From: Streptococcus chenjunshii | Lineage (GTDB): Bacteria > Bacillota > Bacilli > Lactobacillales > Streptococcaceae | Reading direction: 5' to 3' | Length of the DNA stretch: 64,000 bases | Assembly: GCF_003086355.1 (NCBI RefSeq) | Contig: NZ_CP031733.1 | Location: forward strand, 1 to 64,000 | Shown here: positions 3,891-49,166 of the stretch, in pieces | Layout: each line of letters starts with the position of its first letter | Numbering within the stretch: the stretch's first letter is position 1 | Notes under the pieces: model-generated | Told to the model about the DNA's origin: nothing | Seen by the model: only the letters and a program-made list of their open reading frames with translations | Databases searched by the model: none | Translations under genes and position numbers: made by a program

Positions 3891-3972
3891 TTCATATAAA
3901 AAACAGTTAAATGCTTGAGCAAAAATGCAAATTTTTGGCAATCTTTGTATCTTAGTAAGGAGTAAGAAATAA

Positions 3973-28872: not shown

Positions 28873-28962
28873 ACCAAGATACAAAAGTCGTATAAAAATT
28901 CGCATGAAAATGACGGTAAGTTCGAAATCTGTGATTTCGCAGACACCCCCAGTTAAAACGAC
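28873..28962 (-). repeat. Dispersed repeat with GAAATC...GATTTC hairpin, copy A
   Basis: The minus strand reads GGTGTCTGCGAAATC, loop, GATTTCGAACTTACCGTC, then TTTCATGCG...TTGTATCTT. The hairpin CGAAATC/GATTTCG is at 28923-28939. Same family and layout as the copies at 49058-49166. Confidence 0.8.
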
Positions 28963-44059: not shown

Positions 44060-45607
44060 ATGACAAAACGCGCATTAATCAGTGTATCTAATAAGGAAGG
44101 CATCGTAGAGTTTGCTCAAGAATTAAGGAAACTGGGCTGGGATATCATCTCAACCGGCGGCACCAAAGCTGCTCTTGACAGTGCTGGTATAGACAGTACT
44201 TCTATTGACGATGTGACAGGTTTTCCTGAAATGATGGATGGCCGGGTTAAGACGCTCCATCCCAATATTCATGGTGCCCTTCTGGCACGCCGTGATCTAA
44301 AGAGCCATCTGCAGGCAGCCGCTGACAATAAGATTGAACTGATTGACTTGGTTGCGGTTAATCTTTATCCTTTTAAAGAAACGGTTCTCAAGCCGGATGT
44401 TACCTACGCGGATGCGGTGGAAAATATTGATATCGGCGGTCCATCAATGCTGCGCTCTGCAGCAAAAAATCATGCCAGCGTCACAGTCATAGTTGATCCG
44501 GCAGACTATGCAGCAGTTTTAGAAGAATTAGCAAATGCAGGCGAAACAACCCTTGCAACCCGTCAGCGCTTAGCTGCCAAAGTTTTCCGCCACACGGCAG
44601 CCTATGATGCTTTGATTGCAGAATACTTCACAGCCCAAGTCGGAGAAAGCAAGCCTGAAAAGCTGACCCTCACTTATGACCTTAAACAGTCCATGCGCTA
44701 TGGTGAAAATCCACAGCAAGACGCAGATTTCTACCAAACAGCCCTTCCGACAGCTTACTCTGTTGCTTCAGCTAAACAGCTTAACGGTAAAGAATTATCC
44801 TTCAATAATATTAGGGATAGCGATGCTGCTATTCGTATTATCCGTGATTTCAGGGACCGTCCGACCGTTGTAGCTCTCAAACATATGAACCCTTGCGGTA
44901 TCGGACAGGCTGATGATATCGAAACAGCTTGGGATTACGCTTATGAGGCTGATGCTGTCTCAATCTTTGGCGGAATTGTTGTTCTTAACCGAGAGGTTGA
45001 CGCTGCGACAGCAGAGAAGATGCATGATATTTTCCTCGAAATTATCATTGCTCCAAGTTACTCAGAAGAAGCGCTGACTATTTTAACCAATAAAAAGAAA
45101 AATCTGCGTCTTCTGGAACTGCCGTTTGATGCACAGGAAGCCAGCAAAACTGAAAAAGAATACACAGGTGTTGTTGGCGGCCTTCTTGTGCAAAATCAGG
45201 ATGTCGTTGCAGAAAACCCAGAAGACTGGCGGGTAGTGACAGAACGCCAGCCGAACGATAAAGAGACAGCAGCTCTTGAGTTCGCCTGGAAAGCTATCAA
45301 GTATGTTAAATCTAATGGAATTTTAATAGCCAATGACCGTATGACCTTAGGTGTCGGTCCTGGTCAGACCAATCGAGTCGGTGCAGTGCGTATTGCCATT
45401 GAGCAAGCCAAAGACCGCCTTGACGGTGCTGTTCTTGCCAGTGATGCTTTCTTTCCTTTTGCTGACAATATTGAAGAAATTGCCTCTGCAGGCATCAGAG
45501 CTATTATACAGCCTGGCGGCTCGGTCCGCGATCAGGATTCTATTGATGCTGCGAATAAGCACGGCATTGCAATGGTGTTCACGGGCGTAAGACATTTTAG
45601 GCATTAA
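44060..45607 (+). CDS. purH: Bifunctional AICAR transformylase / IMP cyclohydrolase
   Basis: Catalyses the last two steps to IMP (515 aa). The N-terminal cyclohydrolase (MGS-like) domain shows [20 protein letters not shown] and [16 protein letters not shown]; the C-terminal transformylase shows [11 protein letters not shown] and the ending [14 protein letters not shown]. Length is normal. No terminator is visible before the next gene 39 bases on. Confidence 0.97.
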
Positions 45608-45646
45608 GTATTTAAATAAGGAAAATAAGGAGCAAAGAGGAGATTT

Positions 45647-46399
45647 ATGGGAAAATATGTTAAAGAAAATTGGAAAATTTTATTATTAATTATTACAATG
45701 GTGATAGTATCAGGCCCTGTTTTTTCAGTTGTAATCTCTTCTTTTTCAAAGTATTTGAACCATGACTTAGGAGATTGGCTCAGCTTTTATGGAGCAATAA
45801 CAGGAATTGTCATCTCTCTGGTCATTATTCATTTGCAGTTAGCTCTTGATAAGGAAAAAGAAAAAAAGCTAAATCGACCAGTTCTTTTTCTGGAGAATGA
45901 TTATCAAGTTATTAAAAGTAACAGTCTTGTTTATTATCACGATAAATACTGGTTTAGTTTAATTCAAAGAAATAATAAGACAAAAAAGTTAACCGCTCAA
46001 TCATTGAGAAATTCTTACGCCGAGAAAGGTAAAAGGGATAAGACCTTATCTTTGGAGATTGTCAATAATCAGAGGATATTTAATCTCCATATCCAGTTTG
46101 GTGATAAAGGAAGTATCGCCGTTATTCCACAATTATCAGAAAACCAAAAAATTTATGTCATTTCAAAGGAGCACCAAAACGCTATAGCTGCCTATTTACT
46201 AAATAATGACTCTTCGGCCTTTGATCATGTGCCGGAAGTCATAAAAATTTATTTTACGACTTTATCTGGTGAGAAAATCTATCAAAAGTATCAAGTTGAT
46301 GCAAAAGGTTACTGTCAACTGACAAAAGAAAAATACGATGTGATTTACCCTCATCTACCTATGGGGTATTATATTTGTGATTATTTCATCAAAAGCTGA
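45647..46399 (+). CDS. Unknown protein with two N-terminal membrane helices
   Basis: Unrecognised (250 aa). Two hydrophobic segments (about 11-33 and 45-67) are followed by a Lys/Glu-rich turn (LDKEKEKKLNRP) and a mostly beta-like soluble C-terminal part of about 180 residues. A small anchored protein with a cytosolic domain is likely. The start context AGAGGAGATTTATGG is strong. Bases 45638-45654, which hold the ribosome binding site and start codon, are complementary to the small RNA encoded 150 bases downstream of the gene. Confidence 0.7.
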   Translation: MGKYVKENWKILLLIITMVIVSGPVFSVVISSFSKYLNHDLGDWLSFYGAITGIVISLVIIHLQLALDKEKEKKLNRPVLFLENDYQVIKSNSLVYYHDKYWFSLIQRNNKTKKLTAQSLRNSYAEKGKRDKTLSLEIVNNQRIFNLHIQFGDKGSIAVIPQLSENQKIYVISKEHQNAIAAYLLNNDSSAFDHVPEVIKIYFTTLSGEKIYQKYQVDAKGYCQLTKEKYDVIYPHLPMGYYICDYFIKS

Positions 46400-46512
46400 C
46401 TTAAGCCATAACTTGTTTTTCTACTATATGATTGGCATTCTCTCGGTCTTTCAATTACTGACTAGTTTGTTGGTCCTGTATCTCTTATCATTTAAGTTTT
46501 CTGCAAGGAAAC

Positions 46513-46545
46513 GTTAAGCTTCAATTAAGCTGTTCTCTGTATACT
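46513..46545 (+). promoter_or_regulatory. CiaR-type direct repeat and promoter
   Basis: GTTAAG-N5-ATTAAG (46513-46518 and 46524-46529) matches the CiaR consensus NTTAAG-N5-WTTAAG. Ten bases later comes TATACT (46540-46545), the spacing I know for CiaR-activated promoters in streptococci. Confidence 0.82.
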
Positions 46546-46551
46546 ATAACC

Positions 46552-46618
46552 ATCCTAAAACTTTTCTTTTTCATAAATCTCCTAGGAACTCCCAGTCTAA
46601 AGGTTGGGAGTTTTTTTT
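46552..46618 (+). ncRNA. CiaR-controlled small RNA (csRNA-like)
   Basis: A transcript from the CiaR-type promoter would start near 46552 and end at a strong terminator, about 65 bases long, with no ORF. It has an unpaired CTCCT-containing stretch (46572-46583, CATAAATCTCCT) before the terminator hairpin, the layout of streptococcal csRNAs that block ribosome binding sites. That stretch is perfectly complementary to 12 bases around the start codon at 45647. The 5' end is inferred. Confidence 0.75.
46587..46618 (+). terminator. Terminator hairpin of the small RNA
   Basis: AACTCCCA (46587-46594) and TGGGAGTT (46605-46612) with a run of eight Ts. Confidence 0.92.
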
Positions 46619-49056: not shown

Positions 49057-49166
49057 TGACAGCCGACCGCATCCTTCTAGTCGTCTTGGCAGAGGTGCGT
49101 CTGCGAAATCGAAGATTTCGGACTTACCGTCTTTCATACGGATTTTTAAACGACCTTTGTATCTTG
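49057..49166 (+). repeat. Dispersed repeat, copy E (full length)
   Basis: Same order as copy D (hairpin at 49104-49120) and then TTTCATACGG...AACGACCTTTGTATCTTG. Its end joins directly to the second repeat type. Confidence 0.85.

Follow-up and report, generated by a model that had tools for sequence, protein, structure and literature searches.

A predicted small RNA of 67 nt, encoded behind purH in the 64-kb window (the whole stretch of DNA that was analysed), appears to be a newly found member of the known csRNA family, as judged by the sequence criteria of the published definition (Marx et al., 2010; PMC3091779). It is presumably transcribed, and presumably under the control of CiaR. The account that we consider moderately probable is that this RNA, together with its sister csRNAs, blocks the translation start of the adjoining gene at 45647 in trans, and that this gene is one strong target among many. 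The pairing is notable for its position, on the anti-start region of the RNA and on the gene that adjoins it. The adjacency of gene and csRNA is most likely incidental to the shared trans network.

The predicted csRNA gene and its surroundings

The features are as follows:

44060..45607, plus strand: purH (NCBIfam TIGR00355, above cut-off)
45638..45654, plus strand: predicted target site, comprising the Shine-Dalgarno sequence, ATG and first codons of the 45647 gene (17 contiguous pairs)
45647..46399, plus strand: gene for a 250-aa protein with two predicted N-terminal helices (from translation, model and homologue search)
46513..46529, plus strand: CiaR-type direct repeat GTTAAG-N5-ATTAAG, read from the sequence and passing the published search rule
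46540..46545, plus strand: -10 box TATACT, ten bases 3' of the repeat
46552..46618, plus strand: predicted csRNA, 67 nt (from the +7 start to the U run)
46552..46560, plus strand: csRNA nonamer, here AUCCUAAAA (motif [A/C]UCCUAAA[A/C], PMC3091779)
46567..46583, plus strand: anti-start region UUUUUCAUAAAUCUCCU, unpaired in the MFE fold
46584..46618, plus strand: intrinsic terminator, 14-pair stem and U run in the MFE fold

The published search rule for CiaR repeats allows one mismatch per TTTAAG with the final G kept (PMC3091779). Here the half sites GTTAAG (46513-46518) and ATTAAG (46524-46529) are separated by the N5 spacer CTTCA, and over 46513-46545 both retain the final G and show the 10-nt spacing of repeat and -10 box that marks the csRNA class. 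The second half site starts with A; an A in place of the first T of the second repeat is a rare variant (PMC3091779). The RNA start was placed seven bases after the -10 box by the rule of Marx et al. (PMC3091779), and the nonamer opens at the first base of the RNA. The MFE fold leaves nt 1-32 unpaired, the anti-Shine-Dalgarno/anti-AUG sequence CAUAAAUCUCCU is unpaired, and the 14-pair terminator stem occupies 46584-46615 and is followed by U. The fold energy is -14.9 kcal/mol (z -1.5), and 15 of 200 shuffled sequences fold as well or better. The RNA is intergenic and its length is within the published range of 51-202 nt; a 46-codon open reading frame at 46377-46517 that extends into the CiaR repeat was not counted as a gene. 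Proteins named CiaR in S. mutans share 91% identity with a 224-aa open reading frame at ∼1298.8 kb, one of the PF00486 hits of the genome. A search of the 64-kb window against Rfam returned rRNA and tRNA only, and the csRNA terminator is absent from the output of the consensus terminator scan.

The sequence-only reading that preceded this analysis had described a small RNA of CiaR type, with a strong terminator and a promoter consisting of the GTTAAG-N5-ATTAAG repeat and TATACT ten bases on. These descriptions hold: promoter and terminator are as described, and the anti-start sequence, nonamer and ciaR gene are present as well.

The ATG of the 45647 gene is 39 bases from the purH stop codon. 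Its 250-aa product has no Pfam match above the curated cut-off and no match in NCBIfam or PADLOC. The structural model, of low confidence (mean pLDDT 55), shows helices at residues 9-36 and 42-75 and a mixed C-terminal part. Homologues that bear source names are hypothetical proteins of Streptococcus. Clear orthologues are found in 17 of 284 Streptococcus genomes, this genome and 16 others; an eighteenth hit, 31% identical over 90 residues and with two stops, was dropped. A separate scan of named genomes for relatives of the protein found none. The gene lies after purH in five of the 16 loci read, this one included.

A repeat family was seen alongside these features. It is centred around TTTGTATCTT, has a unit of ∼116 nt and is often tandem. 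In the window it is found at 49156, 49274, 51331 and 51448 on the plus strand and at 28885 and 28715 on the minus strand, and the plus-strand site at 3944 has the core only. The core is present in 165 copies in 864 kb sampled, 12 of them within called genes even though the sample is 75% coding, and in 51 of 716 called genes a somewhat longer version stops 12-27 nt short of the start codon. S. pantholopis has 120 copies in 400 kb. The repeat had no match in the Rfam search of the window.

Predicted pairing with the start of the adjoining gene

CATAAATCTCCT at 46572-46583 and AGGAGATTTATG at 45638-45649 are exact reverse complements of each other. TTTTT at 46567-46571 pairs with GGAAA at 45650-45654 through two G-U and three other pairs, which makes 17 contiguous pairs in all. 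The helix ends there, the next base on either side being unpaired. The perfect 12-base complement and the 17-pair helix, both noticed earlier, were reproduced from the sequence.

In the 2,443,046-base genome, AGGAGATTTATG is found exactly seven times: five sites belong to csRNA genes, in antisense, and the other two are at the 45647 gene and at 431126. A 20-codon open reading frame with a strong ribosome-binding site runs from 431126 onward; it is the sole other exact match to the 12-nt seed outside csRNA genes. A mismatch-free search over 16 bases that admits G-U pairs gives two sites outside csRNA genes, the 45647 gene and 608326. The latter is a 97-codon open reading frame that is paired through more G-U than the 45647 gene.

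Start regions were ranked with nt 1-35 of the RNA and with opening costs. The method is approximate, and the 715 starts sampled, ∼35% of the genome, are a non-random set, several stretches having been picked for csRNAs or candidate sites; genes were called by a simple rule of open reading frame plus Shine-Dalgarno sequence, with no gene finder. The earlier suggestion that the 45647 gene might rank first among starts is borne out within this sample of about a third of the genome, by this approximate method: the gene has the longest helix (17, with 14 for the runner-up) and the best accessibility-corrected energy (-17.1, against a mean of -2.6 and sd of 4.9). On hybrid energy alone it is fourth of 715. 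It is eighth when the full 67-nt RNA including the terminator is scored; this energy was discarded on account of pairing between the terminator and a repeated leader.

Among shuffled RNAs, 13 of 200 reach a helix of at least 17 at some sampled start, nine of 40 reach an equally good corrected energy at some start, and 46 of 60 equal or surpass the observed raw hybrid energy somewhere in the sample. Pairing strength alone is therefore unremarkable, since shuffled RNAs often match it somewhere. At the 45647 gene itself, no shuffled RNA attains the observed helix (0/200) or corrected energy (0/40), and two of 60 place this gene in the first four by raw hybrid energy.

Perhaps the match is a by-product of chance and entails no meaningful regulation of the 45647 gene. 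As csRNAs carry a near-ideal anti-start sequence, some gene must match them best, and the frequency with which shuffled RNAs find an equal start somewhere, on corrected and on raw energy, is consistent with this, as is the lack of a significant pairing gradient near csRNA genes in the loci compared below. Yet the gene is first of 715 starts here and second of 347 in S. pantholopis, the bases of the RNA in the duplex are precisely those of its unpaired anti-start region, and no shuffled RNA reaches the observed helix or corrected energy at this particular gene. A chance origin is thus regarded as rather unlikely, though it deserves more weight than a dedicated pair or feedback within one messenger, both considered below.

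Sister csRNAs, orthologues and the purH locus

There are at least six csRNA genes in the genome, at ∼46.5, 166.7, 176.1, 289.6 (minus strand), 640.2 and 777.3 kb, and all six promoters pass the published rule. The 17-nt pairing stretch is identical in five of the six, which gives the same helix with the 45647 gene. By hybrid energy this gene ranks second with the stretches of three sisters and 11th with that of the 289.6-kb csRNA. The sixth csRNA is divergent; with it the gene ranks 56 and the helix is 8.

The pairing stretch sits within an 18-nt core that is found in at least 120 stretches of named genomes. Among the matches listed, and counting promoters within 260 nt of a core site, a CiaR-type promoter is found at 40 of 43 core sites in the 38 Streptococcus-titled loci, as against none of the 82 core sites in the 82 other loci. 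These counts point to the core as a csRNA signature across the genus. The three sites that lack a promoter are in L086, which is cut by the locus end, in L099, which has a weaker repeat, and in L153, where the core is at a gene start with no csRNA. This last site (Streptococcus zalophi, start 4357, plus strand) is the perfect antisense of the 18-nt core, lacks a csRNA promoter and may be a target.

The nearest orthologue of the 250-aa protein, with 74% identity, is that of S. pantholopis, and its gene has the same 12-mer and the same 17 pairs. No csRNA adjoins the orthologue in that species: it is at 2132587, and the csRNAs in the sampled part of the genome are at 1516648, 1991755 and 1897419. 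Its second place among 347 sampled starts was obtained with the RNA of the present genome. Over 136 orthologue pairs present in both samples, the 45647 gene comes first by combined rank, at 0.003 (runner-up 0.029). The combined rank supports a shared target, and is weakened as support by ordinary descent and by the partial, chosen sampling. The rank correlation between the two species (Spearman 0.50) probably reflects shared sequence, and the S. pantholopis match may be simple descent. The second-best shared csRNA candidate is a 315-aa protein that starts MMNQEEWLDYF (1817510, minus strand; S. pantholopis 393719), with 13 contiguous pairs in both species.

Further orthologue loci were scored with the RNA of the present genome rather than their own, 14 of 15 being scorable. 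They spread from percentile 0.6 to 76 of the background of this genome (3/14 in the best 2.5%, 5/14 in the best 10%, and the rest at 16-76%), and conservation of the match among the orthologues is hence incomplete. A search for the same gene-RNA pair in relatives was proposed in the sequence-only reading. In a genome taken as S. devriesei (L008) gene and csRNA are adjacent, but the start of the orthologue differs (AGGAGATTCGTTATG) and the pairing is weaker (-11.7 with the RNA of the present genome). The anti-start seed of the L008 csRNA is also interrupted: an insert of ∼100 nt, folding as two hairpins, divides it, and the flanking CUUUUUCAUA and AAUCUCCU are unpaired.

Conversely, a csRNA is found behind purH without the 250-aa gene in S. 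orisratti, S. caballi, a strain filed as S. mitis and S. porci. In a survey of 30 purH loci, fetched as the best matches of 274 genomes with purH, 11 have a CiaR-type promoter within 1.5 kb 3' of purH, this one included. None of the 10 others, S. orisratti among them, is from a genome with the 250-aa gene. CiaR-type promoters behind purH carry differing anti-start sequences. These loci are most simply explained by an ancient csRNA site downstream of purH, to which the membrane-protein gene came, or at which either gene or csRNA was lost.

Whether csRNA neighbours are better targets in general was assessed in 29 named loci, which hold 34 core sites. Of their 186 genes, the 45 that adjoin csRNAs are paired a little better on average (-3.7) than the remaining 141 (-2.7), a difference that is not significant (p = 0.15). 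Five of the nine best-paired genes are neighbours, compared with 45 of 186 overall (hypergeometric 0.039, at a cut chosen post hoc). Nine further loci do not repeat this lean (p = 0.64), and in all 38 loci the neighbour advantage has p = 0.19; five of the best nine genes are again neighbours (0.051). These five include the L153 gene, which was left in the count although its core site is a gene start and no csRNA. Among the 29 loci, the best-paired neighbour gene, in L108 (S. cuniculipharyngis, start 3777, minus strand), is lipoprotein-like and lies beside a csRNA, with a predicted pairing of -17.5.

These comparisons bear on the sequence-only interpretation of gene and RNA as a self-contained control unit, in which the csRNA would have evolved with, and mainly for, the adjoining gene. 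The csRNA of CiaR type and the first place of its neighbour among the 715 sampled starts are supported; the self-contained unit is not. Adjacency and first rank do speak for a dedicated pair. At most 12 genes flank the six csRNAs, so that an adjoining top target is unusual, a point noticed post hoc, and the five neighbours among the nine best-paired genes of the 29 loci lean the same way. Against this, the 17-nt stretch is shared by five of the six csRNAs, the match is kept in S. pantholopis with no csRNA beside it, other species carry a csRNA behind purH with no such gene, and neighbours overall are not significantly better paired. A private unit is therefore not supported, and is held to be quite improbable.

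The preferred reading remains that of a csRNA acting in trans with its sisters. When CiaR is active, the RNA at 46552-46618 would be transcribed from its own promoter and would act in trans alongside the sisters that share its anti-start stretch. By covering the ribosome-binding site and AUG of 45647-46399 it would exclude ribosomes, and output of the membrane protein, whose gene is probably the last on a purH transcript, would be lowered. Co-transcription with purH, the translation block and a physiological effect are all conditional parts of this scheme. The shared location would then represent the old csRNA slot behind purH, where the 45647 gene also came to lie.

A different arrangement might act besides the RNA made from the CiaR promoter. 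If read-through from purH ends at the csRNA terminator, the anti-start sequence would be in the 3' UTR of the purH-45647 messenger itself and could pair with the messenger's own start, in cis or in trans. Between the gene stop at 46399 and the csRNA, the scan output contains no terminator (the same scan missed the csRNA terminator), and S. pantholopis, which has no csRNA here, has a hairpin and T run directly after the gene, as seen by eye. There are precedents in icaR of S. aureus (PMC3868564) and OppZ of Vibrio (PMC7398697). On the other hand, the scan found a weak terminator-like site at 46349-46366, inside the 3' end of the 45647 gene, the csRNA has a promoter of its own, and cis pairing across ∼0.9 kb competes with translation. 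Such feedback within one messenger is accordingly seen as a slim prospect.

Membrane-protein starts and known systems

Read as antisense, the conserved core CUUUUUCAUAAAUCUCCU of the csRNAs corresponds to an ideal start, AGGAG-AUUU-AUG-AAA-AAG. One 18-nt anti-start core recurs behind CiaR-type promoters in many Streptococcus species, and this makes a question testable: are csRNAs gene-specific, or are they a broad brake on membrane-protein starts? A tentative proposal, on the doubtful side, is that csRNAs may serve as a class-wide brake on starts with Met-Lys-Lys or purine runs, often those of exported or membrane proteins, and so might work as a valve for envelope load and not as gene-by-gene switches. 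The 45647 gene would be the strongest client here, and the terminator could add feedback within the messenger.

In this genome, starts of proteins with a hydrophobic N-terminus pair better (p = 0.003, nt 1-35, raw hybrid energy), and the top 36 of 716 starts hold 39% such proteins, as against 21% overall. None of 60 shuffled RNAs gives a p below 0.01 for this effect. The effect is also found in S. pantholopis (p = 0.008; 65% in the top 17 of 347 starts vs 18%) and in 186 genes of the named loci (p = 0.009). With the 12-nt core alone p is 0.045, and there is no enrichment in the top 36 or 72 starts (17% and 19%). The effect is small, the gene sets share orthologues, and N-terminal hydrophobicity is a crude proxy.

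Work on csRNA targets has centred on S. pneumoniae, S. sanguinis and S. agalactiae (PMC8186281). The 45647 gene is a concrete and ranked target candidate in a genome close to S. pantholopis, whose orthologue has this match too. Among the papers listed, titles and abstract openings showed no csRNA acting on this gene, and no paper was found that joins any two among S. pantholopis, S. devriesei and csRNA.

Several known systems share parts of this arrangement. OppZ and CarZ likewise derive from an RNA gene behind coding genes and pair with a start site in the same operon (PMC7398697). They are processed from the messenger, whereas the 46552 RNA has its own promoter and sisters elsewhere. The CiaR-type promoter just upstream of the 46552 RNA sets it apart from the OppZ type, in which the RNA is cut out of a 3' UTR and has no such element. 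As to pairing within one operon, 17 pairs with the 45647 start are predicted, and they would be of that kind if transcripts read through into the csRNA. In the 5'-3' UTR pairing of icaR in S. aureus a C-rich anti-Shine-Dalgarno motif downstream similarly faces its own start (PMC3868564). In icaR the motif belongs to a long 3' UTR; at the present locus, transcription through to the csRNA is only a possibility.

Closer likenesses are found among the csRNAs. Srn024 of S. agalactiae has predicted pairing with the AUG region of sap, which was tested by translational fusion (PMC9603419); the target gene is a different one, and nt 2-24 of the RNA are used. Pneumococcal csRNA1-5 repress comC by pairing with its start region, with additive effect (PMC4507080). 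The redundancy of sisters on one start region is alike, and the predicted target here is instead a putative membrane protein. The CiaRH csRNAs as a class (PMC3091779) agree in promoter, -10 spacing, terminator, nonamer, unpaired anti-Shine-Dalgarno/anti-AUG sequence and several sisters per genome. Table 2 of that paper has no entry at these coordinates, and S. pantholopis, the closest relative with a name, is not in the table. The paper stresses variable location and action in trans, whereas here the strongest predicted target adjoins the csRNA gene.
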